This document shows positions 3,274-29,680 of a DNA stretch of 39,015 nt, piece after piece. The position numbers and the translations under genes were made by a program. The DNA is from a virus. Numbering within the stretch: position 1 is the first letter of the stretch; each line of letters begins with the position of its first letter. The notes beneath the pieces were generated by a model. It saw only the letters and a list, made by a program, of their open reading frames with translations. It was not told where the DNA came from and ran no database searches. The stretch spans positions 1 through 39,015 of the IMG/VR virus record IMGVR_UViG_3300010883_000112. One strand, given 5' to 3'.

Positions 3274-3759
3274 GTGAATACTGAAAGCAATGACACTCCG
3301 TTAAGAGTGGGATTTACAGGAACTAGAATTGGAATGAGCCTCTACCAAAAAGAGACATTGAGACAAATGTTATCCGCAAATGGTATAGTAACTGAATTTC
3401 ATCATGGGGATTGTATCGGATCAGATACTGATTCTCATATCATATGTCTTAACATGGGTATAAGTATTATTATCCACCCCCCAACTAATTCAAGATTGAG
3501 GAATTACAATAACGATTCCAAAGTAGAACATAGAGCAAAGGATTATTTAGAACGTAATAAGGATATTGTAAATTGTACAGATATTCTTATTGCCACACCA
3601 GAAACATTAATTGAGGAACAGAGATCTGGAACATGGTCAACAATCAGATATGCTAGCAGAAATAGTAAGATTGTGTTACTTATAAATGAGAATGGATTAA
3701 TTTATAAGTATTTTGATGGTCAGCCAAAGATCCATAATAGTATACGAGTTAACGGATAA
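3274..3759 (+). CDS. SLOG-superfamily nucleotide-binding-like protein
   Basis: GTG 3274 follows AGGA (3261-3264) at nine bases. The 161-residue protein opens with RVGFTGTRIGM (beta strand and Gly/Thr loop), then has FHHGDCIGSDTDSH, where the strand-loop H-G-D-x-x-G-x-D is typical of DUF2493/YspA-like and other SLOG proteins. After that come IIIHPP, NKDIVNCTDILIATP and E-x-R-S-G-T-W-S-T-I-RYA, the late motif where a phosphate or ribose is held. Together these give a single Rossmann-like SLOG domain, which binds nucleotides or nucleotide derivatives. Whether it is an enzyme or a sensor cannot be seen. It heads an operon of nucleotide and DNA enzymes. Confidence 0.75.
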   Translation: MNTESNDTPLRVGFTGTRIGMSLYQKETLRQMLSANGIVTEFHHGDCIGSDTDSHIICLNMGISIIIHPPTNSRLRNYNNDSKVEHRAKDYLERNKDIVNCTDILIATPETLIEEQRSGTWSTIRYASRNSKIVLLINENGLIYKYFDGQPKIHNSIRVNG

Positions 3760-3775: not shown

Positions 3776-4588
3776 ATGTGTGGAATATCAATGTTTTTCG
3801 CAAGAGAATCAAAACCAGATTATGAAATTATAGAGCCTCTGTTTAAATGGTCTGAAAAACGAGGGACCGACGGATTTGGAATTTCAATTATAAAAAGATC
3901 TGAACCTGCAAGGAAGATAACTACATACAGAAGTATTTACCCCTATTCAACATGTAAGGGTGAAGTGAAAAGTTTTGTGAAAGTTAACTTTGACAAAGGA
4001 GATTTATTACTATCCAATGCAAGAGCAGCTCCTGAACAAGAGCCTCCTACTACTGAAACAAATATGCAGCCTATTGTAAATGATGGAGTTGTAGTTGTTC
4101 ATAATGGTTCTGTCTCTAATTTTGTATGTGTGGATTTGAAGAATTGGTCTAATAATACTGGCAAGTTTAAGTTTAATACACAGATTGATTCTGAAGCTAT
4201 TATTGCAGAGTATATAAGGCAGGACAAAAATATCAAAGACACATGCGAACATTTGTCTGGTGGTTTTGCTGCAATACTATATGATATTGCATTAGATAGA
4301 GTTTATTACTGGACTGATTTTAAACCGTTAGCCCATATGGCTATTCGGGGAATAGGATATGGATTATCTAGTTCTAACGGGTGTCTTACAGAAATAATAG
4401 AAGATGTTACTGATTGTACTAGAAACGGCGAAAATACATGGGAAGACTTTTATAATCACTATCTAAGAGGCCAACGTATTAAGAGTCTGGATTTAGATTC
4501 TGGCTTTATTAGAAATATTAAATTCAGTCCTAGATTTGTAACTCAGAATTTTGATACAAACTTTGATAATGATGGAAATAGAAGATGA
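3776..4588 (+). CDS. Class II glutamine amidotransferase (Gat-like), 270 aa
   Basis: I choose ATG 3776 rather than the earlier in-frame ATG because it gives MCGISMFF, placing Cys2 at the N-terminus after Met removal, as the Ntn-type catalytic nucleophile of class II amidotransferases. Further family marks are RGTDGFGIS, LLLSNARAAPEQEPP (near residues 77-92), VVVVHNGSVSN (oxyanion-hole Asn-Gly), DSEAII and LSGGFAAILYD. The domain releases ammonia from glutamine. No synthetase domain follows, so it must pass ammonia to a partner. Three bases of its end overlap the ligase, and the QueC gene is next but one. In some archaea and phages a Gat domain fused to QueC makes archaeosine from preQ0, and here the two are separate genes. 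That partnership is inferred. Confidence 0.85.
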   Translation: MCGISMFFARESKPDYEIIEPLFKWSEKRGTDGFGISIIKRSEPARKITTYRSIYPYSTCKGEVKSFVKVNFDKGDLLLSNARAAPEQEPPTTETNMQPIVNDGVVVVHNGSVSNFVCVDLKNWSNNTGKFKFNTQIDSEAIIAEYIRQDKNIKDTCEHLSGGFAAILYDIALDRVYYWTDFKPLAHMAIRGIGYGLSSSNGCLTEIIEDVTDCTRNGENTWEDFYNHYLRGQRIKSLDLDSGFIRNIKFSPRFVTQNFDTNFDNDGNRR

Positions 4589-5898
4589 ATGACTTACAAA
4601 ACTTAGCACCCTTTGTAGAAGAAGCTAATGCTTCTAATTCTACATTAGATAAAAAGAAAGTAATTGAAAGATATCCACAATGCAAGGAAATATGGAAGTA
4701 CATATATGATACGATAAACTATCAGTATGGCGTTACTTCTGGTAACCTTAAAAAGTTATCTAGTGTTGTGGCTGAAACAAATGAATACAATGAAATTATA
4801 ACATTATTAAAGGCGTTAGATAATAGAACTCTGACCGGTCATGATGCAGTAGGAGCAGTTAATAGATTCATAGCAGAAAACCATGAACATACTGATCTTA
4901 TATATAATATCATTGACAGAAATCTAAAGACTAGAACTGATACTAAATTAATCAATAAAATATTTCCTAATACTATTCCAGTGTTTAATGTTTCATTGTG
5001 TGAAACATATAATGCTAAAGCAAAAGTTGATTTTGTAAAAGAGAAATGGTATGCGTCAAGGAAACTCGACGGCAATCGTTGTTTAATATTTGTAGATAAT
5101 GATCTTAATGTTAAATTCTTTTCAAGAAGTGGTAAAGAATTCTACACATTAGATGTAGTTAAATCTACTTTATTAACGTGGGCTGGTGAAAAAGAAAAAG
5201 AAGATCTAATTAGGAATAAAGTCATTGATGGTGAAATCTGTATGGTTGAAGATGGACTAGAGGATTTCCAGAAGATAATGAAATATATAAGGAAAAAGAA
5301 CTATACAATTCTAAATCCTAAATTCTATGCATTTGATATAATATCTATGGATGATTTTTGGAATGAAAAGGGAACAACCACATTCATTAATCGATTGGGG
5401 TTTTTAACAAATATTGGATTTGATGGAACAGTTTTGACCTCGCTACCACAAACGCTAATCACTTCCACTGATATGTTTGATGCTTGTGCTAAGGCAGCTA
5501 ATGACAATGAATGGGAAGGACTGATACTTCGAAATGGAGATTCAGTGTATGAAGGAAAGCGGACCAGAAGCATGTATAAAGTTAAACAATTTATAGATGC
5601 AGAGTATATAATTAAAAGTGTATCAATGGGTCCATTCAGGCATATTGATTCTATAACAGGATTAGAAGTTGAATGTGAATTGCTCAGTAGAGTTAGTATT
5701 GAACATAAGGGGAATCCGGTGGGGGTAGGTTCTGGATTTAGTCTTGAACAGAGAAAGATGTGGCATAAAGATCCGAATGATCTGTTAGGTAGAACTATAA
5801 CAGTTAGATATTTTGAGGAAACAGTAGATGAAAAAGGAAAACCGAGTTTGCGATTTCCAGTTATCAAGCATATTTATGATGGAGAAAGAGATGTATGA
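4585..5898 (+). CDS. ATP-dependent DNA ligase
   Basis: The 437-residue protein has the nucleotidyltransferase signature KLDGNR with the adenylated Lys at about 160 (motif I). It also has FFSRSGKEF (motif Ia-like), VIDGEICMVEDG, FYAFDIISMDDF (motif III), EWEGLILRN (motif IV) and MYKVKQF (motif V, Lys pair). The C-terminus, with GVGSGFS and ITVRYFEETVDEKGKPSLRFPV, is the expected OB-fold. About 150 N-terminal residues form an additional helical domain, as in DNA rather than RNA ligases. It seals nicks in duplex DNA with ATP. The start overlaps the amidotransferase stop (ATGA) and its own end overlaps QueC in the same way, so the three are co-translated. Identification is firm; DNA rather than RNA as substrate is very likely. 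Confidence 0.93.
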   Translation: MNDLQNLAPFVEEANASNSTLDKKKVIERYPQCKEIWKYIYDTINYQYGVTSGNLKKLSSVVAETNEYNEIITLLKALDNRTLTGHDAVGAVNRFIAENHEHTDLIYNIIDRNLKTRTDTKLINKIFPNTIPVFNVSLCETYNAKAKVDFVKEKWYASRKLDGNRCLIFVDNDLNVKFFSRSGKEFYTLDVVKSTLLTWAGEKEKEDLIRNKVIDGEICMVEDGLEDFQKIMKYIRKKNYTILNPKFYAFDIISMDDFWNEKGTTTFINRLGFLTNIGFDGTVLTSLPQTLITSTDMFDACAKAANDNEWEGLILRNGDSVYEGKRTRSMYKVKQFIDAEYIIKSVSMGPFRHIDSITGLEVECELLSRVSIEHKGNPVGVGSGFSLEQRKMWHKDPNDLLGRTITVRYFEETVDEKGKPSLRFPVIKHIYDGERDV

Positions 5899-6818
5899 GT
5901 GAATTATGTCTAGTATCATGTAGTGGGGGCTTAGACTCTTCCTCTACATTAGCAATGTTAAAATTAGCAGGCTACGAGAATGTCATAGCATGTTATTTCA
6001 ATTATAATCATAGAGGTGGCGATTGTGAAAAATTGGCTATCACGAATGTTGTTGATGAATTAACAGCTAAAGGAATGCCTGTTACACTTAAGGAATTTGA
6101 TCTTTCTGGTATTTATGAAGCTATGGGAAGTAAGGATATATCTATGTTAGAGAATCCTGAGGCCGAAGTGACCACCGGAACGGCTAAGGGGCTGAAAACA
6201 CTACATGCATGGCACCCTGGACGCAATATGATGTTCATGACGGTAATGGCATCATATGCAGAATCATTGGTTATGAAACATGGATATGATAAAGTTTATC
6301 TATTAGGTGGATTTTTGAATCTTACAGAATCAGGTCACTACCCCGACAATTCAGAATACTTTTTACAATCATGTTTGGAACTATTTAATTATGGAACATT
6401 GATAGGAAATAGGATAACTCCATTATATGGATTATCTAATTTAATGAAATCAGATCAGTGGGAATTGATTAAACACTTTGATTTATGGGATGCCATCAAA
6501 CATACTATTAGTTGTGATAGACCTTATTTATATAGTACATCTGATGGGGATTCAGTATCGACCCCACATAATTGTATGAAGGATGGTCTTCCCGCATGTG
6601 GATCGGGACTTCTGTCATATTGGTCTTCTAAAATGGTTGGGATAGATGACATGAATATTAGAAACTTCTATGAAGTAGATGATCCTGATTACCACCCATA
6701 CATACCTGTTCATATAAACGAAGGGAAGACTCTAGATAAAGATATCTACAATATTATAGATAGAATACAAATTCCTGAAGATAGAAAAAGTGAATTACGT
6801 TCTCGATTAGGAGGTTAA
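5895..6818 (+). CDS. queC: QueC-like 7-cyano-7-deazaguanine (preQ0) synthase
   Basis: The 307-residue protein has the PP-loop SGGLDSS (residues 10-16) that binds ATP pyrophosphate, then PGRNMMFMTVMASYAE (about 108-123), which corresponds to the QueC 'PGRN..fl..a..yAE' block. It also has PDNSEYF...LELFNYGT, the counterpart of 'PD...eF...ln.al..Gt'. QueC turns 7-carboxy-7-deazaguanine into preQ0 using ATP and ammonia. The C-terminal zinc site is unusual: Cys207, Cys227 and Cys235 are present, but the usual CGxCxxC cluster reads ACGSGLL, so ligands are missing. It is longer than the bacterial enzyme (about 230 aa). With the amidotransferase two genes upstream, it points to 7-deazaguanine modification of phage DNA. 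FolE, QueD, QueE and the inserting enzyme DpdA are not in this window. Confidence 0.85.
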   Translation: MSELCLVSCSGGLDSSSTLAMLKLAGYENVIACYFNYNHRGGDCEKLAITNVVDELTAKGMPVTLKEFDLSGIYEAMGSKDISMLENPEAEVTTGTAKGLKTLHAWHPGRNMMFMTVMASYAESLVMKHGYDKVYLLGGFLNLTESGHYPDNSEYFLQSCLELFNYGTLIGNRITPLYGLSNLMKSDQWELIKHFDLWDAIKHTISCDRPYLYSTSDGDSVSTPHNCMKDGLPACGSGLLSYWSSKMVGIDDMNIRNFYEVDDPDYHPYIPVHINEGKTLDKDIYNIIDRIQIPEDRKSELRSRLGG

Positions 6819-19785: not shown

Positions 19786-22587
19786 TTATATAATGGTAAT
19801 GGATATTGAATCTGATGTGAATGCTACTAATTGAGGTGTATAATCTAATAGATCAGCAAACACAAGATCATCTATTTTATAGTTGAATCTAATATCTATT
19901 TCTGGGCCAATAATTTCTACAAATCGAACACCTAATACCCCTCTAGCAACTTTTACAATTTCCGATCTATCAATATCAACATCCATACCAAATTTTGATG
20001 CAAAATTATCTAGTAATGCTGTTTTTATGTTAGCTTCTAATGCTGAAGAAGATATTGCTATATCAGGATCTTTGTTAATTTTTAAAGATACATTAAACGG
20101 AATATCAAATATTGGTTCAACCCAACTTATTCCTGTCCATTGTAATTTTTTGTTTTGATCTGGATCACTTGTATTTAATGGATTAACTATTTGAATAAAC
20201 TCATCGAATGATGGTTTTATAAATATCCAACTGTTACCGTTCCATTGTGCCAGTTCATTTTTATGTGTATTCCAGTCTTGACTGAATATATCAATTCCTT
20301 CTGTTCCATTTACAATATATGTATCATTTATTACTGGAGTATTAGGAACTTCAGTTAAACTTCTGGATATTATCTTTGTTGATGCAATGGCATTATATTT
20401 CATGTTAGTCAACTTGCCAATTGTATCTGCAAACTTAATATTGAGAAAATCTGTTAACATTCGAATTGAGTTAATTTTTAGATTACCAATAAGTTTCTGA
20501 AATACAGCCAATTCAAAATTATCTACATTGAAATTTTCTTGAGTTATATAAGATGAGAGTATAGTTGGAACGTTATGTACTGTTGTTACTCCATCAGTCT
20601 CCGTTATTGAACTAAACATGAAATCACTTAAATCTTTTCTAATGATTACATCTGCAGTATGAGTAGTTAATGTAATCCATTTTGATGGTTGAGATGTATC
20701 GCTTTCAATTCCTAATGCGATTTTATCTTCCATTGTAATCTGGCTGTACGGAATAAGTCCTTCCACTAATACTTTGAATTGAACAGAGTTTCTAGGAAAG
20801 TTTAAGAAGTCAAAGAATTGATAACTAAATCCATTAACCTTTGTAACATCTTCAGTATCTAATTCAGTTGTCATTGAATACTTTGCATTATCAAATGTAG
20901 TAATTAGATTTGCTCTGAATTGAGTAACATTAGTTGTGGGCGTATGGTTTGCATTTGTATAGATATCTATATTGATAATATTAGTATCATTTGGATCAAC
21001 AGTTGATGTAAATTTGACTGAAGGAATATTTAAAAATACAAGAGGATTATATGTCGGATCACTACTTTCTAAAGCAGAAGTAATTGTAACTTCTCTTAAG
21101 ATATATTCATAACTAGCTTGTAGCGATGTTAAATCAATAATCATATTGAATGCTGATTCAAAATCATCATGATTAGGAATTGTAGCACCCCTAGGGACAA
21201 AGAAACTTGTACTATCAAACACATAGGGGAGATTTCTAGTTGGTACGATTTCAGCCGCCCCATTTGCGTTTTCTGGATTGTTATATATGAGCTCAGAAAA
21301 TACCGAAATTTCGTTTGTTTTTAAATCGCTTCGTTTTAGAATAGGTTTCGTTTTTTTAATAGGTACATTAGGAGCAATAATATTAAAATCGTCATAGTCA
21401 AACTCTGATACGAGTCTACCTTTGCTGGTGAGATTGGTTATTGCTGCACTTTTAATTTCTGATAAGGATGGAGTATCTTTTCCTCCAGTAGCAGGTTCAG
21501 TATTTACTGTGGTCAGTTTTACCCGTTGGACTCTATTATTATCATTTTCATAGAATAGACTATCTGATGAAGTAATTGAAGCAGGAATTACATTTCCTTT
21601 TTCGCCTTTAGTTAATGATACAATTATTGCAATTGTTGAAGCTCTAGTTGGTTGTTCACCAATAATTCCATTTCCAAAGAGTATTTCGGATTCACCATCA
21701 AAGTTTGTGCTTATGAATGATTTATCTCCTTGGTTTAAAGTATATAGCCCAGAAATTGCTTCAGTCCATAGGTATTCAGTTTTTTGATCTTCCGTTAATT
21801 TAGATTCTATGTCTGTAACAGTTGATACATCTGTCATGTCTATTTCTGGAGGAATTACATAAATAGTTAACTCACTAACTTGACCATCAAGATTAGTTAA
21901 GCGTTTTGTAAAGAATTGATAAAATTCCAAATCGTCAGGAATTGTAAATGATCTATATTCTTTAACTATTTGACTAAATGGTAAAACGAATGATGCTGAT
22001 GCAGTATCTCCTCCGTCACCAATATTTATTTCTACTGGATATAAGAAACCAGTAGTTGCATTTCGTACAGATACAATTCGGTTATTTAATATTTCAGTTT
22101 GAACTCCATTAGCGATCATACTTGCTATTTGGGCACGAAGATCTTCTTCTGTCCCAGATACTAAAGTTCCATTTAAAACAAAGCTGGTGTCTAATGTGAA
22201 TGCTACATCTCCAGCTCGTACTTGAAAATCAGTTGGGAAAACTAAGTTTACGTGGGGATCATTAAATTGCAAAGGTAGTGTAAATAATACATTGATATTT
22301 GAAGGAGTGGCTTGGGGTATGGTATATCCTATCCATTTCGATAAGTTATATACTGACTCTTGTATTTGAGCTTGAGTTAAAAAGAATTCTCTATATAACG
22401 TAGAACTATAAAACATTTGATTGGCGGACAGAATGGATAGTATATTTATAATGTATGACATAAAACTAGTATTAGTCAGGTCAACATTAGATAGTTCTAA
22501 ATAGTTTTTAGCCTCCTCTACAAGCTGATTCCTTATCTCTTCTCTAGAACTGAAGATCTTTATATCGTTATCTTTAAATAGGGCCAT
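19786..22587 (-). CDS. Baseplate wedge protein, gp6-like, with inserted module
   Basis: The 933-residue protein matches the T4 gp6/baseplate J layout. A helical N-terminus (residues 1-90, REEIRNQLVEEAKNYLELSNVDLTNTSFMSYIINILSILSAN-type, dimer-forming) is followed by beta-rich domains from about 100. The J-like core has GEQPTRASTIAIIV and PATGGKDTPSLSEIKSAAI, near 310-385, close to the family mark 'atGG.d.es..eik..a'. A C-terminal domain holds VKVARGVLGVRFVEI. Residues about 745-831 look inserted: the pattern PxxPxxxDxYIV, ELAQWNGNSWIFIKP and LQWTGISWVEP is that of a DUF2793-type domain. gp6 forms the ring that links wedges in T4. Start is supported by position, but there is no strong Shine-Dalgarno sequence. 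Confidence 0.9.
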   Translation of the reverse strand: MALFKDNDIKIFSSREEIRNQLVEEAKNYLELSNVDLTNTSFMSYIINILSILSANQMFYSSTLYREFFLTQAQIQESVYNLSKWIGYTIPQATPSNINVLFTLPLQFNDPHVNLVFPTDFQVRAGDVAFTLDTSFVLNGTLVSGTEEDLRAQIASMIANGVQTEILNNRIVSVRNATTGFLYPVEINIGDGGDTASASFVLPFSQIVKEYRSFTIPDDLEFYQFFTKRLTNLDGQVSELTIYVIPPEIDMTDVSTVTDIESKLTEDQKTEYLWTEAISGLYTLNQGDKSFISTNFDGESEILFGNGIIGEQPTRASTIAIIVSLTKGEKGNVIPASITSSDSLFYENDNNRVQRVKLTTVNTEPATGGKDTPSLSEIKSAAITNLTSKGRLVSEFDYDDFNIIAPNVPIKKTKPILKRSDLKTNEISVFSELIYNNPENANGAAEIVPTRNLPYVFDSTSFFVPRGATIPNHDDFESAFNMIIDLTSLQASYEYILREVTITSALESSDPTYNPLVFLNIPSVKFTSTVDPNDTNIINIDIYTNANHTPTTNVTQFRANLITTFDNAKYSMTTELDTEDVTKVNGFSYQFFDFLNFPRNSVQFKVLVEGLIPYSQITMEDKIALGIESDTSQPSKWITLTTHTADVIIRKDLSDFMFSSITETDGVTTVHNVPTILSSYITQENFNVDNFELAVFQKLIGNLKINSIRMLTDFLNIKFADTIGKLTNMKYNAIASTKIISRSLTEVPNTPVINDTYIVNGTEGIDIFSQDWNTHKNELAQWNGNSWIFIKPSFDEFIQIVNPLNTSDPDQNKKLQWTGISWVEPIFDIPFNVSLKINKDPDIAISSSALEANIKTALLDNFASKFGMDVDIDRSEIVKVARGVLGVRFVEIIGPEIDIRFNYKIDDLVFADLLDYTPQLVAFTSDSISITII

Positions 22588-22594
22588 TTTAAAT

Positions 22595-22604
22595 ATTTGT
22601 TCTC
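22595..22604 (-). promoter_or_regulatory. GAACAAA motif upstream of gp6-like gene
   Basis: The minus strand reads GAGAACAAAT seven bases before the ATG. The same ten bases stand before the gp25-like gene. That closeness to the start argues for a translational or leader role as much as a promoter. Confidence 0.45.
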
Positions 22605-22619
22605 AGATTAGTTTTATGA

Positions 22620-22739
22620 TTAATAACCATATTCTAGCTTTATCTTAGGGGAAGATTTTCCATTAAATATTATAGAATAATCCATTCTTCTTTGTTTATT
22701 AGTATTAATATCTTTTGCGATATATGAACAATTAGTCAT
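22620..22739 (-). CDS. Small protein, 39 aa, between wedge genes
   Basis: ATG (22737-22739) overlaps the stop of the upstream gene in the ATGA form, and the frame ends at TAA (22620-22622). The product is MTNCSYIAKDINTNKQRR, then DYSIIFNGKSSPKIKLEYGY, with a basic middle and an aromatic, beta-like end. The gene is in the same operon as gp25 and gp6, so coupled translation is likely. Nothing like it is known to me. The exact overlap makes it credible despite its size. Confidence 0.7.
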   Translation of the reverse strand: MTNCSYIAKDINTNKQRRMDYSIIFNGKSSPKIKLEYGY

Positions 22740-23386
22740 GAGTTAAAATAGAATCCAATTCGTTCATTATAATAGTCTTTAACCTTAGATGTTTGATTTT
22801 TATCTAACAATCTATATATTAATGTTGCAGTGTCAATATCATATATTTGTTTTTCATAATCGACAAATGAAAAAATTGCTCTAAGTTGTTTTTCTAATTT
22901 TGTTAGTGTAAATTCACTAACTTGTAAACTTAATTTCCAGAAAGAGAAAAATGAATTAGTTGCCTTCTCAAAATTTACCACTCTATATAAAGGACTATCA
23001 ATTGAAGGAGCATCGCTCTCGTTTAATTTTGGTTCTACAAATTGAATGAAATCAGTAGCAGTAGGCTGAATGTTATATAGAGTAGGAAAGTTAAGACTTG
23101 ATGATTGATTGAATTTACCAAATCCTCGTTCATCTGCTTCAAATACTGGCTGAATCTGTTCTGTGTTATAGATAGGTAGTAGTGTAATCTTCTCCCAACA
23201 ATATCCAGATAATTCTCCCAATACTTCATATGCTCCTGAATCTAACACTTCGAGATCTGCCGTGCTGCTAGGGAGATCCAAGTGATAATAGTTACAAATA
23301 TAGGAAACACCATGAGCTGCATAATACCTGTATACGAGATTTAAATAATCAGCGGGATAGTGTTGAAGCCTTAACCAATTTTGCAT
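22736..23386 (-). CDS. Baseplate-cluster virion protein, 216 aa
   Basis: The start shares one base with the stop of the gp25-like gene (TAATG). The 216-residue protein has Tyr-rich helices at the front (LRLQHYPADYLNLVYRYYAAHGV), a middle that reads like a beta barrel (WEKITLLPIYNTEQIQPVFEADERGFGKF, then FIQFVEP), and a helical end with DIDTATLIYRLLD. Similar proteins accompany gp25 in several T4-related and large phages as unnamed virion proteins. The location between gp25 and gp6 (where T4 relatives may have gp53 or another wedge part) supports a wedge component. The T4 gp53 signature is not evident, so I do not name it. Confidence 0.7.
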   Translation of the reverse strand: MQNWLRLQHYPADYLNLVYRYYAAHGVSYICNYYHLDLPSSTADLEVLDSGAYEVLGELSGYCWEKITLLPIYNTEQIQPVFEADERGFGKFNQSSSLNFPTLYNIQPTATDFIQFVEPKLNESDAPSIDSPLYRVVNFEKATNSFFSFWKLSLQVSEFTLTKLEKQLRAIFSFVDYEKQIYDIDTATLIYRLLDKNQTSKVKDYYNERIGFYFNS

Positions 23387-23892
23387 TATGCTTCTCCGTG
23401 TAAGTCTGTAAATAAGTCTGTATACGATTCTATAAAGTCAAGAGATGTAGAGGCAGTCTCTTCTCCTGTTTGGATAGTTATAGATAATCGAAATCCTTTC
23501 CTATTAGAAAAGAATCCAGTATCAACATCAGTTATTTCAAGTCTATCATCCCATTCTCTAATCCTGTCTACTACTTCTGCTATAATTTCATCTTCAGTAT
23601 CATTATCGGCCAGATCAAATATCTTCTTATATAAATTTGATCCATATAACGGATTAAATGGATATGTCCCAATAGGTGTCATTAATAAATTTCTGATAGA
23701 GTTTATTAAAACGTTGATACCGGATAGCCTTTTAAAATCTCCCTCGGGTGAAATAATAGAGGAGAAGTCTACATAAATATTATCTGCTCCTTCTAAACTT
23801 CTAGAAAATGTTCTGGATGTATTATTAGCTATTTCCAGAGAAGTTGTAGTTGTAGTATCTACAGGAGCTAAAACTTTCTTATATTCAATCAT
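23386..23892 (-). CDS. Baseplate wedge protein, gp25-like
   Basis: The 168-residue protein carries the gp25/lysozyme-like wedge signature: VLINSIRNLLMTPIGTYPFNPLYGSNLYKKIFDLAD, then IIAEVVDRIREWDDRLEI and strands ending in FRLSITIQT. The conserved 'L..T..GerpfnP.fGs.l....f' and the helix 'I..a...wepRi.v.dv' are both present. In T4 and in contractile injection systems this protein binds the sheath and holds the wedge. Here an N-terminal arm of about 40 residues and a Thr-rich TTTTTS stretch precede the domain. The ATG has only a weak GAG upstream and the GAACAAA motif ends four bases before the start. Confidence 0.9.
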   Translation of the reverse strand: MIEYKKVLAPVDTTTTTSLEIANNTSRTFSRSLEGADNIYVDFSSIISPEGDFKRLSGINVLINSIRNLLMTPIGTYPFNPLYGSNLYKKIFDLADNDTEDEIIAEVVDRIREWDDRLEITDVDTGFFSNRKGFRLSITIQTGEETASTSLDFIESYTDLFTDLHGEA

Positions 23893-23896
23893 TTAA

Positions 23897-23906
23897 ATTT
23901 GTTCTC
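23897..23906 (-). promoter_or_regulatory. GAACAAA motif upstream of gp25-like gene
   Basis: The minus strand reads GAGAACAAAT four bases before the ATG, and its first base is the last base of the upstream frame's stop codon. It is identical to the copy before the gp6-like gene. Confidence 0.45.
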
Positions 23907-24133
23907 TACTTAATATCTTTAAGTTGATCTTCTTTCATTTTGGACACTTCTTCGTCAAATTTAACTTTCCACTTGATGTAACTATGAAGACGATCAATCG
24001 GCATTTTAATAATAGAGGTATATTGTTGTTTACCGAGTTCCATTGCTAGGAATATATTTTCCTGTATTGACTTCTGGTACTCGATCAGTGATTCTTCATT
24101 CGTGCAGTGAACGAAAAAATTGGTTGAATAAGT
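23906..24133 (-). CDS. Overlapping +1 frame: likely frameshift extension of 24096-25049 product
   Basis: This 75-codon open frame has no usable start before an internal ATG (24041-24043, which would give 45 aa with a poorly placed AGGA). It overlaps the last 12 codons of the preceding gene in the +1 frame. Its residues look coding throughout: FVHCTNEESLIEYQKSI, NIFLAMELGKQQ and IIKMPIDRLHSYIKWK. A conserved-looking end of this kind ('..l..y...i...fla......s...im.MP..R...y......') is expected at the C-terminus of gp26/gp51-type baseplate proteins. The likely crossing point is the mRNA run TTT TTT C (plus-strand A6 at 24114-24119), where Phe-tRNA can slide forward onto TTC. Alternatives are one extra base in that run from a sequencing error, or a separate 45-residue gene. 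Confidence 0.6.
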   Translation of the reverse strand, partial: TYSTNFFVHCTNEESLIEYQKSIQENIFLAMELGKQQYTSIIKMPIDRLHSYIKWKVKFDEEVSKMKEDQLKDIK

Positions 24134-25049
24134 CTATGGGTGTATCGTCCGAGACTCCGCAACTTGGACAGGTGGTTTGTATTTCTAATTTCATAGCATA
24201 CTTACCAAAGTTTTCTACATACTCACGACTTATTGCTTTTCTATCTTGACTCGACAATGTATTATATGCTCTGAATATATTGTCTCGTCCTGTAATATCT
24301 TGACGTACTCCATTATTTTCCATAACGAATTTATCAATGACTAACATTTCTGTTCCCAATTCTAAATTCTTATCGCTCTGAAAAAGCATATCTTCTAACA
24401 TTGCTTTTTCATCTGCAATAACTGGTTGCTTTATAACGGCAGTAACATTGCTTATGATAGGCAGTGGAATATCAATACGTTTATTGATTATTTCTCCAGG
24501 ACTACCATTAAATGCTTCCATCTGAAATATCTTTCCAATTTCAAATGTAATAGGATTGGATTTTCTACACTGTAAACATGTTACATCATAATTCCTCACA
24601 TCTTTATATGAGATATGGTACAATGCATACATAAGGACATCTCTATCCTTAATAGTTATATTTTTTAGAAAGTCATCATATGTTACAATATTTTCAGGTT
24701 TGCTTACAATTGATTGCCAGAGTGCTTTATTCAAATGTTCCGGAACTTTTCTAGGGGTTATTAAACTACCTTTAAGATTTTCTTCCACTTCAACAGTCAT
24801 TGTTTTAACTGTTATGGAATATAAACTTTGAGGAGTTATTAACTCATATTCTGGTAACTTAACATCAGTAAAGCCAGCAAAGTATCCTGTTGGGGACATT
24901 GTAGCAGTTGATACTTGAGGTGTTACCACTGGTGGTGGCATTTGGGGTGGTGGCATTTGGGGTGGGGGTGGGGGTGTGTCAGGCGTTAATTGTTGCGGTA
25001 ACGGTGCAACATTAGCCATTGGTGATTCTTCTACAGATGGGTTGTCCAT
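24096..25049 (-). CDS. Baseplate hub assembly-type protein (gp26/T4_baseplate-like) with Zn-ribbon
   Basis: GAAGGAG lies six bases before the ATG. The 317-residue product starts with a Pro-rich arm (PPPPPQMPPPQMPPP, about 25-41), followed by a folded domain with SLYSITVKTMTVEVEENL (about 80-95), FLKNITIKDRDVLMYALYHISY and NYDVTCLQCRKSNPITFEI. A second Cys pair, TTCPSC, lies near the end. The two CxxC pairs form one split zinc ribbon. This arrangement (N-terminal arm, DRDxLMYALY, CxxC...CxxC, then DLFxQFF) is that of T4_baseplate/gp26-like proteins in large myophages. The frame ends just after NQFF, where relatives are expected to continue. The missing tail is present in the +1 frame (23906-24133), giving a joined product of about 380 aa. 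Confidence 0.75.
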   Translation of the reverse strand: MDNPSVEESPMANVAPLPQQLTPDTPPPPPQMPPPQMPPPVVTPQVSTATMSPTGYFAGFTDVKLPEYELITPQSLYSITVKTMTVEVEENLKGSLITPRKVPEHLNKALWQSIVSKPENIVTYDDFLKNITIKDRDVLMYALYHISYKDVRNYDVTCLQCRKSNPITFEIGKIFQMEAFNGSPGEIINKRIDIPLPIISNVTAVIKQPVIADEKAMLEDMLFQSDKNLELGTEMLVIDKFVMENNGVRQDITGRDNIFRAYNTLSSQDRKAISREYVENFGKYAMKLEIQTTCPSCGVSDDTPIDLFNQFFRSLHE

Positions 25050-25136
25050 GACAAGCTCCTTCGATTAAAATTAGTTTGTAGATAGTTATTGATTTGATTT
25101 AATTAATCGTAGAAATAAATTTCCTAGTATATAACG

Positions 25137-25185
25137 AAAAAAAAAACAGGAATCAACATAATACATATACTATGTTGATTCCTGT
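25137..25185 (-). terminator. Strong intrinsic terminator after tail tube gene
   Basis: On the minus strand a perfect 15-base-pair stem (25171-25185 with 25146-25160, ten-base loop) is followed by a run of ten T (25137-25146 read in reverse). It lies 30 bases past the tube gene's stop. It should end or reduce the sheath-tube transcript and leave the baseplate genes to a separate start. Confidence 0.92.
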
Positions 25186-25215
25186 GAACTTATGATTTAG
25201 CTGCTATTATTCTTA

Positions 25216-26037
25216 TTATGCAGGTGATGTTGCAGTGCCAATTCCACCGGAATCGGTATGACTACCTTCTTCAGTATTATTAGCTGTTGAAGTACCTACC
25301 TTATATCCGCCATGTGCCTTGATACCTTCCCCGTGGTAGAGATTTGCCATGAACTGACATTCTTTTCTTACCCAACTCTCCATGAAAGGCATATCGAAGC
25401 TGAACTCCATATCAACTTCTAGCTTATCTGATGAGGCTATGTCGCCAGCATACAGTTCTTGGGGATCTTTTGTTGGGTAAACACCTGTATAACATGCAGC
25501 ATATTCTACTGTTACACCATCTGGTTTTGTTGTCCAGTATAATAGTGTTCCAGAATATGCCGATTTAGTATATTCTATAGATGTCTGGCTTTTAGCACTT
25601 CCAGTTAACAAACTGGTACCATTTCTGTATTCTCTGATCATTCTAAACCAGTTGTTGAATACATGAAGGATAGGTAATCTACTATATTCCAGGAATCTCA
25701 TTGAAAGAGTATTCCCATAATCAATATTTGTAGGAACGGACCATTTCGTTCCGCCAAGACCAGTGAATTCAGCTCTGTTTAGTGTTCCCCCGACTGGAGT
25801 AACAGACAAACATGATGCAGCTAATAATCTAGCTATTTCATCGTTTCCAGGAGGACCTTCTTGAAAACCGAGATCTGCCGGGTCATTAACAGCTAGGTGG
25901 GCTGAAAGGTTTGGCGGAAGATGTTTGAAATGAATGAAGTGATAGCCACTGATATATGGATCAGCGACCCCCTTACTAGTCCCGCCAAAATATCTATCAT
26001 GGCGGTTCTCTTGGGTTTTTACGAAACTATTATGCAT
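25216..26037 (-). CDS. Tail tube protein, gp19-like
   Basis: GGAG lies seven bases before the ATG. The 273-residue protein has the contractile-tail tube pattern: VPTNIDYGNTLSMRFLEYSRLPILHVFNNWFRMIREYR (about 96-133, strand then helix) and SAYSGTLLYWTTKPDG. It continues with VEYAACYTGVYPTKDPQELYAGDIASSDKLEVDMEFSFDMPFME, the closing strand-rich block with the 'G.yP' turn. It is larger than T4 gp19 (163 aa), with an added N-terminal region and a Gly/Ser/Thr-rich C-terminal tail that may be exposed. Position after the sheath gene is the usual order. The strong terminator behind it agrees with very high expression. Confidence 0.9.
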   Translation of the reverse strand: MHNSFVKTQENRHDRYFGGTSKGVADPYISGYHFIHFKHLPPNLSAHLAVNDPADLGFQEGPPGNDEIARLLAASCLSVTPVGGTLNRAEFTGLGGTKWSVPTNIDYGNTLSMRFLEYSRLPILHVFNNWFRMIREYRNGTSLLTGSAKSQTSIEYTKSAYSGTLLYWTTKPDGVTVEYAACYTGVYPTKDPQELYAGDIASSDKLEVDMEFSFDMPFMESWVRKECQFMANLYHGEGIKAHGGYKVGTSTANNTEEGSHTDSGGIGTATSPA

Positions 26038-26061
26038 CCTATTACTCCGCGAATTTTATTA

Positions 26062-26070
26062 ATTTGTTCC
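26062..26070 (-). promoter_or_regulatory. GAACAAA motif upstream of tail tube gene
   Basis: The minus strand reads GGAACAAAT in the 44-base gap between sheath and tube genes, 24 bases before the tube ATG. It is followed by AATAA and then the GGAG ribosome-binding site. Confidence 0.45.
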
Positions 26071-26081
26071 ATCTTATTGTT

Positions 26082-27758
26082 TTATTTTATGAATAGATTT
26101 AAGTTAATTCTTTCAATTGCTTTCGTTGGCTGTAATATTACATTAACGTGCATTTGTTTAGTTTTAATTTCATATTCGTTTGCTCCGACCTCAACACTGT
26201 AATCAACCAATCCTCTTGCAGATTTGATTGATGATAAGAACGGTGTTATTGCCGCAGCCATTCTTGAATGTTCTTCAGGTGTATTTAATTCAAAGATATG
26301 GAACTTGAGAAATTGTTCCAAGTTCCTTTGAATATACAGAATTGTTCTGTGTACACTTAAGTCTTGAAGAGCAGAAGGTTTTCTTTGTGTAGTTAAATTA
26401 GAGAATACTGCATAACCGATTGAGAATTTAACAATTGGATTAACTTGTTTGAGATATAATCTGTCTCTATCAGCTATCCTGGGATTGAATCTCAATTCCA
26501 TAATGTTATCAACGGTTCCTCTATTGAATCCAGCATTTGGATACCAAATACCAAACAATCTATCATTCTGAGGAATCATTGAAGCCATGTGATAAACAGG
26601 ACTTACCCATAATTCTTTACCAGTATGGTTATCAAATATTTTACTGTAACATTCAAATATTGATGCGTAAGCAGTATTGTATGTATGACTAGCATCTCTA
26701 GCTGAAAGGGCTGCATCTACTGATACATTATCACCATTATCAAGGATAGCTACACCATCTAATCTTAAGCTACTTGTTAATGTAACAGCAGCATTCTTGA
26801 CTGATGTTGGATAACCAGCATCATATACGATTGGTATGTATGTATCATCTAGGTCTAATACAGTTTCATCCAATAGTCCACTTTCGGGATTTTCAATCAA
26901 TCCTGTATATGCATCAATTAGAAGTGAAGTTGCATTTGTAATTTCGGTTGACCCCATTGTTCTCTTACCGGTATCGGAATCAACCGCAATGATATTGCCT
27001 TCTGAACCGTTGAATAAGTGAACAGGTGTTACTGAATCACCAACTACAATTTCGATAGATGATTTTTGCCATTCATTAATAGATGTTTCATTGGCTTTAA
27101 CTCTAATCCATTTGGAGTATCTATTTACAACATCCACAATGAATATGGAATCACCAGAATCATCTATAGCAGTTGATTCAAATGAAATCTCATATGTTTC
27201 TATAATTACATCATCTCCATCAGCTTGAGTTTTCCAAATATCAAGAATGTAGATTCCAGTTAATTGTGTATTTGCATGTTTAGTAATTGTAATGGCAAAA
27301 TCATCATAAGCATCTCCTCTACCAATTGGGTAGAAAGCTACTAATGGAGTAATAGTCCCAGTTGTCTGTGCTACTTCAGTATCTATTTCCCCATGTGTAT
27401 TAAGGGTAGTTTCGTGAGTTACTGATATTGCCCCTGTTGAATCTGTATTATAGTTTACAAATAAATTAGAATACGTTGCATCAGTAGGTAGAACGCGCAT
27501 TGCCCAAAATCCAGGAGCAACAGAAATGTGGTTATACGCCACATATGGGCCTTGCCCGAATGACTTCCCAAAGTCATTGATATTTGGTCTTCCATATAGA
27601 TCTACAAACTGTTGAAGACTTGCAACAAAAACTGCTTTGTTATCTGGACCTGTTCTCGATAGAAATGGCAGGAATGCATGAGTTCCTGGAGTTTCTACAA
27701 GAAAGGAAGATAAATCTATTATTTTAGTGAACACACCTGGGCTTACATTGTTTGCCAT
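26082..27758 (-). CDS. Contractile tail sheath protein, gp18-like
   Basis: AAGGA lies ten bases before the ATG. The 558-residue protein begins MANNVSPGVFTKIIDLSSF, the usual 'sPGVy..e.d.S' sheath start, then GTHAFLPFLSRTGPDNKAVFVASLQQFVDLYG ('g..af.g...wGp.n.pv.v.s...f...fG') and VAPGFWAMRVL. The variable outer domain occupies about 90-330. The C-terminal domain shows LWVSPVYHMASMIPQNDRLFGIWYPNAGFNRG ('p.S.....a..D.....W.spAG..rG') and LSVHRTILYIQRNLEQFLKFHIFE, the 'v.vrR.l..i..sl......f.fe..n' block. These are the domains that lock neighbouring sheath subunits together. It is the first gene of the minus-strand tail operon. Confidence 0.95.
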   Translation of the reverse strand: MANNVSPGVFTKIIDLSSFLVETPGTHAFLPFLSRTGPDNKAVFVASLQQFVDLYGRPNINDFGKSFGQGPYVAYNHISVAPGFWAMRVLPTDATYSNLFVNYNTDSTGAISVTHETTLNTHGEIDTEVAQTTGTITPLVAFYPIGRGDAYDDFAITITKHANTQLTGIYILDIWKTQADGDDVIIETYEISFESTAIDDSGDSIFIVDVVNRYSKWIRVKANETSINEWQKSSIEIVVGDSVTPVHLFNGSEGNIIAVDSDTGKRTMGSTEITNATSLLIDAYTGLIENPESGLLDETVLDLDDTYIPIVYDAGYPTSVKNAAVTLTSSLRLDGVAILDNGDNVSVDAALSARDASHTYNTAYASIFECYSKIFDNHTGKELWVSPVYHMASMIPQNDRLFGIWYPNAGFNRGTVDNIMELRFNPRIADRDRLYLKQVNPIVKFSIGYAVFSNLTTQRKPSALQDLSVHRTILYIQRNLEQFLKFHIFELNTPEEHSRMAAAITPFLSSIKSARGLVDYSVEVGANEYEIKTKQMHVNVILQPTKAIERINLNLFIK

Positions 27759-28133
27759 AATAACTAATCCTTAGTTTAAAATCTATTATACTTAAATTGT
27801 ACTTTTATTTTTGTTCTGGAGAATGGTATAGGATAATTCATTTATATATATTGATGCACGCATCAGGAACGAAACTCGTTCCATATTGCTATAACAACGG
27901 TATAGGAATCAGAAATAGGAGGACAGTCCAATGTGATTCAGATACATTGAATTGTGAGTATAAACGTTATACTCACAATTAGTACAAGACGAGTCAGTCG
28001 TTTGGATATGTGGCCAATTGAACTAACCCTTCAGTTGGTTGCATGTTTCTTTTGGCTATAGTTTGTCTATACATATTAACTTGTGATTCAAAGAAACTAT
28101 TCAAACTTTAACAACTAACAGAGGGAATTAAAA
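27759..28133. other. Divergent intergenic region with several hairpins
   Basis: This 375-base gap separates the sheath gene (minus) from the 28134 gene (plus). It holds the following paired segments: TGATG/CATCA (27852-27856 with 27861-27865); GGAACGA/TCGTTCC (27866-27872 with 27876-27882, three-base loop); the long inverted repeat AATTGTGAGTATAA/TTATACTCACAATT (27950-27963 with 27967-27980); and CAATTGAA/TTCAGTTG (28015-28022 with 28030-28037). The phrase GGTATAGGA appears twice (near 27826 and 27899). A 61-codon plus frame across it is Cys/Tyr-rich and looks non-coding. The region could encode a structured RNA leader for the 28134 gene or hold operators for both directions. No tRNA features were found. 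Confidence 0.6.
27808..27819 (-). promoter_or_regulatory. GAACAAA motif and TATAAT upstream of tail sheath gene
   Basis: The minus strand reads CCAGAACAAAAA 49 bases before the sheath ATG. A TATAAT follows closer to the gene (27786-27791 reversed), so a host-type promoter is also possible here. Confidence 0.45.
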
Positions 28134-28361
28134 ATGCCAGATGTCATTGATGTTGCTACGAGTATTGCAGAAGCAGTGAGTCAATTGGAATCCACATTGA
28201 AAACAAAGTTCACTATTGAATCAGTGGACGCGTTTTTGAGTCACAAAGACGTAATGGACTGGGGGATTGATTTTCTTCAGAATCAAGTCGATGTGGCGAT
28301 GAATGATCGTCATGCGGAAAAACACGATGTTACATGTGTAACACTCCGTATTCCGGGATAA
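28134..28361 (+). CDS. Small protein, 75 aa, isolated transcription unit
   Basis: GAGGG lies before ATG 28134, and a strong hairpin terminator begins at the stop. The 75-residue product is acidic and helical (VIDVATSIAEAVSQLESTLKTKFTIESVDAFL), with a WGIDFLQNQVDVAMNDRHAEKHDVTCVTLRIPG end. No family is recognised. It is flanked by minus-strand virion genes on both sides, has its own long structured leader and its own terminator, and is richer in G+C than its neighbours. That suggests an independently and perhaps strongly expressed gene, unlike the operon-encoded virion genes. Confidence 0.8.
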   Translation: MPDVIDVATSIAEAVSQLESTLKTKFTIESVDAFLSHKDVMDWGIDFLQNQVDVAMNDRHAEKHDVTCVTLRIPG

Positions 28362-28388
28362 AAGAGGGGGTTACCCCTTTTTTATCCA
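28359..28388. terminator. Bidirectional terminator between converging genes
   Basis: The sequence AAAAGAGGGG-GTTA-CCCCTTTTTT forms a ten-pair hairpin (one G-T) with a T run for the plus strand and TCTTTT for the minus strand. It starts inside the stop of the 28134 gene. On the minus strand the TAA of the 28371-28720 gene falls in the loop, so one element closes both genes. Confidence 0.85.
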
Positions 28389-28720
28389 ATCCATTTTTCC
28401 ACTTTCATAAAGTTGCTCTTCAAATCCATCTTTAAGTTTGGTATGAACTTTTAATTTTTGAGATTTTGATAACTTGTTGATCAGTTGTTTATATTTCTTA
28501 AAACAATGATCAGCCATCCATTTTGCAGCTATGGGTACAGTTTTTGGATTTTTTTCTAAATCTTTAAATTTTGACTCTGCTAAATCGTAAACATCTGTTC
28601 GACCACTAATTGATACATCATATATATCCTGAGCTATTTTTCTTCTGGTGATATCTTACGATTCCAATCTTTTCTTTTCTTGTTAAATAATTCTCGTAAT
28701 ACATATGAATATATAGACAT
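28371..28720 (-). pseudogene. Small gene with broken reading frame (116 aa if joined)
   Basis: From ATG 28718-28720 the frame gives 28 residues, MSIYSYVLRELFNKKRKD to KISPEEK, then TAG (28634-28636). In the -1 frame the same stretch continues as IAQDIYDVSISGRTDVYDLAESKFKDLEKNP, then AAKWMADHCFKKYKQLI, ending DWIKKG at TAA 28371-28373. The join ISPEEK-IAQDIYDVS reads naturally, so the two parts were one gene. The break is at an A5 run next to the TAG (GAAAAATAG), where a -1 slip on AAA would read through. Alternatives are a true one-base loss or a sequencing error in the homopolymer. The N-terminus resembles that of the next gene upstream. Function is unknown. Confidence 0.65.
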
Positions 28721-28734
28721 TTTATTATCTTTGA

Positions 28735-28929
28735 TTATTTCTTCTTATTCTTTTCAACCTCTTTCACGAAGTCAGGTTTGGGTTCATTCTCCTTGCCATC
28801 ACCATCTTTGTCTTTGTTCTTCCATTCCTTCTTAAAAGCTTCTGGGACTTCCTTTTTGGCAGTCTTATTGGATTTCTTGTTGATACTTGATCCAGATAGT
28901 TCTCGTAATACATATGAATATTTAGTCAT
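28735..28929 (-). CDS. Lys-rich small protein, 64 aa
   Basis: The product starts MTKYSYVLRELSGSSINKKS and then becomes extremely Lys/Glu/Asp-rich (EWKNKDKDGDGKENEPKPDF...EKNKKK), likely disordered. Its first ten residues (M-T-K-YSYVLREL) and the underlying DNA match the start of the neighbouring 28371-28720 gene, implying a duplicated head joined to a different tail. There is no good Shine-Dalgarno sequence (an AAAGAA lies before the ATG). It follows the 28950-29630 gene at 20 bases and is in the same operon. It could be a small virion or scaffold-like protein, but this is not evidenced. Confidence 0.65.
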   Translation of the reverse strand: MTKYSYVLRELSGSSINKKSNKTAKKEVPEAFKKEWKNKDKDGDGKENEPKPDFVKEVEKNKKK

Positions 28930-28949
28930 TTCTTTATTTCTCTCTTTTT

Positions 28950-29630
28950 TTAAAAGAATACATTCCAGACGAAAACAATCTGACGTTCTGGAAACTTTCT
29001 TAATGTGCTGAATGTCACTCTAGCAAACATTCTAATAGTTGCTAAATGTGCGGCTGCACTTCCACCTGTGAAGTCCGCTTGAAGTTTACTGTCACTTACA
29101 TATAAGCCAGCTTCATTGAGGTCATAGAAATCTGAAACAGTTGTTCCGCCTGCTGGACCATTACCGTCATCTGCTCCTAATGTAACAGTTATAGAAGCTT
29201 TAAGTAATTCATTATTGTTATCAGAATCAATAACAAATTCCACACTATCAAATGGATGATATTTTCCATCATCAATACAATCAGTTGAGACTTTGTTATT
29301 TATAGTTGACTGTTGTGTTAAATCTGCATCACTCAATGATGGAGCTAATGGGACCATTAAGTTTGACGATGCTCCACCTGATCCACAACCAAACCAAGAT
29401 ATAAATGCATTCTTTATATTTGACACAGATTCGGGAATAGTGATTTCATTTAATGCCCTTTGCATTAACCAATTACGTCCTTGGTATACTACTAAATTAC
29501 TTTTGTCGTGTAACTTTAAATTACCATCGGGGAACTTTTCGTATATTTCTACTTGTCCTCTAACCGTAGAGGTTACTTCGTCCTTTACATGTTTGTGAAG
29601 ATTTTCTTTAATGTTTATTATATTGACCAT
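28950..29630 (-). CDS. Virion protein with C-terminal VTF...VFVW pattern, 226 aa
   Basis: AGGA lies before the ATG. The 226-residue protein has a short helical front, then strands such as NLVVYQGRNWLMQRALNEI (about 46-64), a Gly/Ser-rich FISWFGCGSGGASSNLM, and the end NEAGLYVSDS...LATIRMFARVTFSTLRKFPERQIVFVWNVFF. That C-terminal phrase ('eagLy......a.ifaRvtfp.i.K...r.ivf.W.i.f') is recurrent in unnamed virion proteins of myophages, usually next to baseplate or fibre genes. It is therefore likely a tail-associated structural protein. Its exact place cannot be seen. Confidence 0.7.
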   Translation of the reverse strand: MVNIINIKENLHKHVKDEVTSTVRGQVEIYEKFPDGNLKLHDKSNLVVYQGRNWLMQRALNEITIPESVSNIKNAFISWFGCGSGGASSNLMVPLAPSLSDADLTQQSTINNKVSTDCIDDGKYHPFDSVEFVIDSDNNNELLKASITVTLGADDGNGPAGGTTVSDFYDLNEAGLYVSDSKLQADFTGGSAAAHLATIRMFARVTFSTLRKFPERQIVFVWNVFF

Positions 29631-29659
29631 TCTCTAATTTCCTACTAGTGATATAGTAA

Positions 29660-29670
29660 ATTTGTTCTAG
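29660..29670 (-). promoter_or_regulatory. GAACAAA motif upstream of 28950-29630 gene
   Basis: The minus strand reads CTAGAACAAAT in the 50-base gap, 29 bases before the ATG and upstream of its own AGGA site. Confidence 0.45.
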
Positions 29671-29680
29671 TTGTCGTTTT

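Follow-up and report, generated by a model that had tools for sequence, protein, structure and literature searches.

A Gat-QueC homologue split by a DNA ligase gene in a large tailed phage with a putative 7-deazaguanine DNA-modification pathway

The window analyzed here is a whole stretch of 39,015 bases from a virus (IMG/VR record IMGVR_UViG_3300010883_000112, classed as linear). It carries a class II glutamine amidotransferase (GAT) and a QueC homologue (QueC1), which are the two halves of one ancestral Gat-QueC, now encoded separately on either side of a DNA ligase gene. It is quite probable that this phage encodes a complete pathway placing a 7-deazaguanine in its own DNA, with GAT and QueC1 acting as a split Gat-QueC that gives archaeosine or a close relative. 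Such pathways are already known in phages; judged from its genes, the system of the window phage appears to be a real, unusual variant of them. The virus itself is taken to be a contractile-tailed phage because other genes of the window match baseplate, tail sheath, terminase and Dda-like helicase families, and the window appears to be part of a large tailed phage genome. No similar DNA was found when bases 1-25,000 were compared by megablast with 50,697 phage records.

The three genes of the split locus all lie on the plus strand. GAT (3776..4588) encodes 270 amino acids (aa) beginning with MCGI and matches the Pfam families GATase_7 (5.4e-10) and GATase_6 (1.9e-8), both above the curated cut-offs; an earlier, sequence-only reading of the window had called it a class II amidotransferase with Cys2, and this stands. 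The class II domain expected of a Gat-QueC is present with its Cys2 and glutaminase residues: C2, R83, H109-N110-G111 and D138 were read directly in the sequence and presumably have the same catalytic roles as in other class II amidotransferases. The open reading frame (ORF) finder begins this gene at a TTG at position 3713, but translation likely begins at the ATG at 3776, which makes Cys the second residue. The second gene (4585..5898) encodes an ATP-dependent DNA ligase of 437 aa (Pfam DNA_ligase_A_M, 6.2e-19; phrog_114, 9.5e-72). The third, QueC1 (5895..6818), encodes 307 aa and matches PF06508 above its cut-off (7.8e-20). Its QueC domain carries the SGGxDS PP-loop of Gat-QueC proteins (SGGLDS, residues 10-15), a PGRN motif, a YPDN motif (residues 149-152), a remodelled zinc site and a C-terminal extension.

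Both junctions are four-base ATGA overlaps, read directly on the plus strand: the GAT stop overlaps the ligase start (4585..4588), and the ligase stop overlaps the QueC1 start (5895..5898). Three longer IMG/VR contigs belonging to this phage (193.5, 70.5 and 64.5 kb) show the same arrangement and are 99.95-100% identical to the window in the overlaps; the GAT and QueC DNA is identical in all of them and the ligase nearly so. The 193.5-kb contig is called G001 below. A frameshift or assembly artefact was ruled out, as the four records are concordant, the ligase ORF is intact and the overlaps are clean. The earlier description of two separate genes, joined in an operon-like manner with the ligase between, is therefore correct.

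GAT and QueC1 match separate parts of a single fused PHROG, phrog_10428 (profile positions 21-150 and 258-441, respectively, of 476). QueC1 matched 66 phage records at E values up to 1e-4, with ~31% identity, and 29 of the 40 matches listed bear an amidotransferase, archaeosine-synthase or GlmS-like name, as expected of fused genes. Relaxing the search to E 10 returned 153 records; among the best 60, the stand-alone deoxy-preQ0 (dPreQ0) synthases were far weaker (GottfriedDienst 0.8, Dp-1 0.3, CP220 0.1), although a pair of genes with a QueC annotation scored 3e-4 and 6e-4. GAT alone, used as a tblastn query against the 50,697 phage records, gave no match at E 1e-4.

A survey with a phage Gat-QueC profile provided 118 loci: the best 80 of 147 confirmed viral loci, and 38 loci from genomes, 30 of which are archaeal by title. 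GAT and QueC share a single ORF at 112 of these loci. Of the others, three are the contigs of the window phage, one, L133, is truncated by the edge of its contig, and two, L076 and L083, show overlapping ORFs. These last two, scored as split in the automatic count, were rejected as true splits: no gene lies between their ORFs and they look like sequencing frameshifts, the QueC part of L083 being itself spread over two ORFs. An intervening gene was found in the window phage only, among the 118 loci. The single polypeptide that characterizes Gat-QueC is thus replaced in this phage by separate ORFs, with the ligase between them.

The best relatives of both halves in the survey are L091 and L092/L093, each fused. 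The window groups with L091/L092 at 100/97 in the QueC tree (118 rows: 105 Gat-QueC rows, with duplicates and shortened rows dropped, and 13 other QueC rows) and at 100/100 in the GAT tree (33 of those 105 rows); both trees carry long-branch warnings. Clade-specific scans revealed closer fused relatives. L187 (616 aa) is 49% identical to GAT over its residues 1-269 and 59% to QueC1 over residues 304-608, and L181 (557 aa) is 48% identical to GAT and, over residues 267-553, 55% to QueC1. L182, L185/L191, L188 and L189 are also fused, while L190 starts at a contig edge. In clade trees of 8 clade rows and 4 others, which omitted L182 (insert), L190 (fragment) and the duplicates L093 and L191, the window joins L181 and L187 at 99/99 for both halves; the nearest pair among the three differs between the trees. 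In these trees, L187 was divided at a linker site (TGGDDS) ahead of the true loop, and a short stretch of linker was shifted from one tree to the other. L187 shares three further neighbours with the window: a helicase, a 290-aa gene and a 443-aa gene.

GAT and QueC1 are shown to be one enzyme in two pieces by the single-ORF relatives that match both halves and by the trees, in which each half has the same partners. It is extremely improbable that they have nothing to do with each other, GAT being an amidotransferase that modifies wall or sugar and QueC1 a stand-alone QueC: the genes are indeed distinct, and GAT by itself is best matched in NCBIfam by an asparagine synthase model, far below its cut-off, but the fused L187 and L181 proteins contradict this reading, as does the agreement of the trees. 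Inspected by eye, GAT stops and QueC1 starts within the linker that joins the two domains in L181, and no residue of either domain is evidently missing. The simplest history would be a fission of the fused gene in this linker, with the ligase now lying between the halves. Relatives of the window ligase were sought on 8 contigs of fused relatives, which may be incomplete, and none was found; the positive control, G001, was recovered.

The other genes of the pathway were located on G001. From a separate GAT and QueC, the sequence-only reading had inferred 7-deazaguanine modification, and it had supposed that FolE, QueD, QueE and DpdA would lie elsewhere or be supplied by the host; the first idea gains support from the fused relatives, the trees and the pathway genes, and FolE, QueD and QueE were indeed recovered: FolE at 76,709-77,305 (4.9e-70), QueD at 95,524-95,970 (1.3e-34) and an intein-containing QueE at 157,229-158,923 (L013:5229-6923; phrog_2076, 2.9e-53). 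A second QueC paralogue, QueC2, lies at 160,463-161,203 (L013:8463-9203; phrog_1550, 7.3e-10); it has a TPGIDT loop in place of SGGxDS and keeps the zinc cysteines. No QueF above the cut-off was found in six records, each of which gave one sub-threshold match, within the FolE gene in the three contigs of the window phage, and a domain search found no ArcS. GAT with QueC1 is hence the only amidotransferase candidate found.

For the insertion step, a DpdA-like protein is encoded at 165,740-167,164 of G001. It was located by a motif search and then with PHROG (phrog_887, 9.8e-7 and 2.2e-8) and a profile made from 12 DpdAs of other phages, with which it is the sole significant ORF among 198 (1.2e-9; the next at 0.5). 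Six of these 12 DpdAs (Yut2, BS162P1, a gut record, ALK, L091 and L092) had been assigned by motif and position, not by annotation. In an alignment of the G001 protein with 45 others, taken from 61 listed viral DpdA rows, D90, S91, G92, D131, H244 and D277 are invariant; the aspartates D90, D131 and D277 presumably have catalytic roles, by analogy with tRNA-guanine transglycosylase (TGT). H244 aligns with H196 of the phage 9g DpdA, so that the DpdA histidine is present as well as the aspartates. In an excerpt of PMC6884629, H196 is named as conserved. The lone G001 sequence, used as a query, matched none of six relatives and carries no weight, and a later DpdA profile included the G001 sequence, making its match there one by construction. 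The doubt left by the lack of a DpdA in the window thus appears largely answered, if by a divergent protein.

A modification of tRNA in place of DNA, with GAT and QueC1 supplying archaeosine or queuosine, is very unlikely. It would agree with the archaeal enzymes, which act on tRNA according to a partial view of PMC5485725 and to which most of the genome loci of the survey belong by title; however, Pfam detected no TGT in the contigs, the phage encodes a DpdA-like protein that has the DpdA histidine, and DpdA is included in the operons of relatives of the window phage.

The sequence-only reading had described QueC1 as a QueC-like preQ0 synthase. The homology to QueC was confirmed by PF06508, but the motifs indicate that this half is not a normal preQ0 synthase: YPDN replaces the YPDC of preQ0-type QueC, and the C(x)8CxxCxxC of the canonical enzyme is missing, as is CGxCxxC. 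With Y/F and P/G allowed, YPDN is kept in all 8 clade rows (QueC1 plus seven fused relatives) and in 99 of the 102 fused rows outside the clade, against none of the 12 unfused QueC rows. The zinc region, on the contrary, separates the clade from the other fused enzymes: SCY is found in 102/102 other fused rows and CGxCxxC in 100/102, both in 0/8 clade rows, while CGS is found in 8/8 clade rows and 0/102 others. The usual zinc site of Gat-QueC, with SCY and CGxCxxC, is thus absent from QueC1 and from all 8 tabulated clade rows. L182 and L190, outside the motif table, likewise have SCD and CGS, so that the pattern covers nine related contigs in addition to the window phage. Fused enzymes provide the cleanest comparison, since the stand-alone QueC rows are mixed (SCY or TCY in 9/12, CxxCxxC in 11/12). 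The SGGxDS count in the other fused rows (92/102) probably reflects where the domain cut starts. As both the fusion and the zinc motif, two defining features, are lacking, the protein is better called a Gat-QueC variant than a member.

Cysteines 207, 227 and 235 are retained in QueC1. The residue two positions before C227 varies, being His in the window, L091, L188 and L189, Cys in L181 and L187, and neither in L092, L182, L185 and L190; in view of this variation, any metal binding in the clade would be putative. The tyrosine of SCY, following the first zinc cysteine, is taken to be equivalent to Y189 of E. coli QueC. According to the part available of PMC13329287, the Y189A variant of E. coli QueC is inactive. 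The loss of this tyrosine and of zinc cysteines would suit a simpler product, preQ0 or 7-amido-7-deazaguanine, made by a split, zinc-altered enzyme that no longer forms the amidine and receives ammonia from GAT for the amide step only; 2'-deoxy-7-amido-7-deazaguanosine (dADG) is known in phages (PMC8306585, in excerpt). We consider this unlikely, as neither the PP-loop nor YPDN, a mark of the fused enzymes, nor any of the GAT residues has been lost. If Y189 is the tyrosine after the first cysteine, QueC1 may nevertheless have abandoned the synthesis of preQ0, a task that perhaps passed to QueC2.

Clustering of the genes flanking the relatives revealed a recurring order: QueD, QueE, FolE, (SDR), radical SAM (rSAM), Gat-QueC, HAD, QueC2, DpdA. 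Of 9 distinct related contigs, QueC2 is present on 7 and rSAM on 7; the exceptions are L187 and L181, without QueC2, L185, without a clear rSAM (a weak match lies inside its QueE gene), and L190, cut upstream. At the remaining Gat-QueC loci (74 viral, 38 genome), whose flanks are limited, profiles for QueC2, rSAM, SDR and HAD gave no match; a match was counted at E 1e-5, and QueC2 or rSAM had to outscore the Gat-QueC or QueE profile. These profiles were built from clade members, hence their presence in the clade is partly by construction. An rSAM profile built without L187 matched the L187 contig at 1.4e-80 and none of 5 control records. The G001 rSAM (100,122-101,174) and its L181 counterpart share 34% identity across 331 aa (3.7e-66). 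The G001 rSAM belongs to no clear named family, its NCBIfam matches being far under cut-off, and its best PDB matches by sequence are SkfB and YydG, peptide-modifying rSAM enzymes. Viperin was rejected, the match being far under cut-off, and so was RaSEA, whose NCBIfam model, which we take to be TIGR01210, is not among the matches listed for G001 or the relatives.

Because of the remodelled zinc site, QueC2 and the associated rSAM, none of which had been part of the sequence-only reading, archaeosine is less certain here than in phage 9g; it is kept as the default product, and another 7-deazaguanine is possible. That the base is not archaeosine, the zinc-remodelled enzyme working with QueC2 and rSAM (and SDR in some relatives) toward a further-modified or different 7-deazaguanine, is a serious possibility, although not the one we favour. 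It accords with the presence of SCD and CGS, in the places of SCY and CGxCxxC, in the window phage and 9/9 related contigs against 0/102 other fused rows, with the lack of the companions near the other loci and with the independent rSAM match in L187. The origin of the profiles and the limited flanks count on the other side, as do the missing rSAM of L185 and the missing QueC2 of L187 and L181; phage 9g, moreover, makes G+ without such companion genes (excerpt of PMC6884629). More tentatively still, one can propose a so far undescribed phage Gat-QueC clade in which a rebuilt zinc site, QueC2 and a dedicated rSAM lead to an unknown 7-deazaguanine DNA base, and in which the window phage alone produced a two-subunit complex by fission.

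In the preferred reading, a split Gat-QueC giving archaeosine or a close relative, FolE, QueD and QueE would convert GTP to 7-carboxy-7-deazaguanine, and a QueC-family enzyme would turn this into the amide or nitrile. GAT would free ammonia from glutamine, while QueC1, as an ATP pyrophosphatase, would activate the side chain of the 7-deazaguanine with ATP; attack by the ammonia would then give an amidine, archaeosine (G+) or a close relative. The DpdA-like transglycosylase would exchange guanine in DNA for the 7-deazaguanine base, which may protect the phage from restriction. GAT and QueC1 probably act as a heteromer, and translational coupling probably matches their amounts. The nearest precedent is phage 9g, whose Gat-QueC and DpdA put 2'-deoxyarchaeosine (dG+) in plasmid DNA in E. 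coli, even without queC, according to an excerpt of PMC6884629.

Several observations weigh against this reading. QueC1 lacks the CGxCxxC and the SCY tyrosine that other Gat-QueC proteins keep, so its activity cannot be assumed. The pathway genes of the window phage are not in one operon, being spread over ~99 kb. The DpdA-like protein is very divergent: its three contigs gave no match to the Pfam model of TGT, tblastn of the 9g DpdA against contig pieces gave no match, and tblastn of the G001 protein against the phage collection gave none at E 0.01. A single-sequence AlphaFold model of this protein failed (predicted local distance difference test, pLDDT, of 39). A second model (pLDDT 62) used an alignment that included 45 other DpdAs and for that very reason leans to a DpdA fold; Foldseek gave no match for it below E 0.001, TGT coming second at 6.6e-3. 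Re-alignment of this second model speaks in favour of a DpdA: all 50 PDB entries listed are tRNA-guanine transglycosylases (Z 15.1-16.2), the archaeosine TGT 1j2b at the top with 16.2; the TGT-like TIM-barrel fold is thus recovered by re-alignment of a model made from a DpdA-rich alignment. Finally, a profile search found no DpdA on the L187 and L181 contigs, where QueC2 was also not found, and FolE, QueD and QueE were not found on their 14.6- and 16.9-kb loci; these contigs may be incomplete.

A literature search covering open-licence papers found, among the papers listed, no report of a Gat-QueC split by an unrelated gene, of a zinc-remodelled Gat-QueC clade with companions or of an intein in QueE. 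The natural split would offer a two-subunit version of the enzyme, in which ammonia supply and ATP-driven chemistry could be assayed apart, which is not easy in a fused enzyme. The altered zinc site, QueC2 and rSAM point to a possible new modified base and a further phage escape from restriction, for which the clade offers a concrete gene set to test.

The QueE intein of G001 (intein_Cterm above cut-off) interrupts the radical-SAM CxxxCxxC motif immediately ahead of its third Cys. The intein at the same site in the QueE of L092/L093 (L092:2404-4011; Hint above cut-off, an HNH-like stretch below) looks different by eye. An intein-like insert of ~168 aa also lies directly ahead of TGGYPDN in the fused Gat-QueC of L182 (L182:7980-10145). 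In the Stenotrophomonas phage Yut2, a QueC-like gene without the loop adjoins a DSGG-containing TGT-like ORF. Vibrio phage GR11A, with a ligase followed by two QueC genes, was rejected as a relative because of differences in the QueC motifs and in the neighbouring genes; what precedes its first QueC does not resemble GAT by eye. In two large phages, GR11A (L046:7548-11827) and PhiXhv-15 (L042:832-5167), ORFs that look acyltransferase-like by eye adjoin the Gat-QueC or QueC genes; one PhiXhv-15 gene is annotated leucyl/phenylalanyl-tRNA-protein transferase, and in GR11A a gene annotated lysine 2,3-aminomutase follows. Amino-acid-decorated 7-deazaguanines in these two phages would be a guess. 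Directly upstream of GAT in the window, a 161-aa ORF (3274-3759, plus strand; phrog_289, 3e-7) resembles, by eye only, a nucleotide-binding Rossmann protein. On G001, a run of sugar-nucleotide-type genes, named by eye from their first residues (SDR, nucleotide-sugar dehydratase-like and cytidylyltransferase-like ORFs), occupies 21382-31940.

Among known systems, Enterobacteria phage 9g and its relatives (Queuovirinae) share with the window phage the GAT Cys2, the PP-loop QueC, YPDN and co-encoded FolE, QueD, QueE and DpdA. The 9g Gat-QueC is fused, whereas the window phage has two genes with a ligase between, has lost CGxCxxC and SCY and carries a C-terminal extension; the identity is only ~30%, the pathway genes are scattered, and QueC2 and rSAM are additional. 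Gat-QueC is described as a fusion in the available parts of PMC5485725 and PMC6884629, and the latter states that it is unknown whether the phage enzyme acts before or after insertion into DNA. The archaeal Gat-QueC (Thermoproteota, Nitrososphaerota and others) has the same domain order as the two halves, but serves a tRNA pathway (PMC5485725, in part), is fused except in the frameshifted-looking L076 and L083 and has a zinc motif of the usual kind, as counted jointly with the phage rows, in contrast to the remodelled one of the window. Canonical QueC, the preQ0 synthase, belongs like QueC1 to the PF06508 family and has a PP-loop; its YPDC and CxxCxxC (PMC13329287, in part) are absent from QueC1, which has a GAT partner instead. 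The closest counterparts are those of the uncultured phages: L187, L181, L091, L092, L182, L185, L188, L189 and the L190 fragment have the same remodelled zinc region as the window, with 48-59% identity over both halves for L187 and L181, but the first eight encode one fused ORF each, on contigs where no relative of the window ligase was found.

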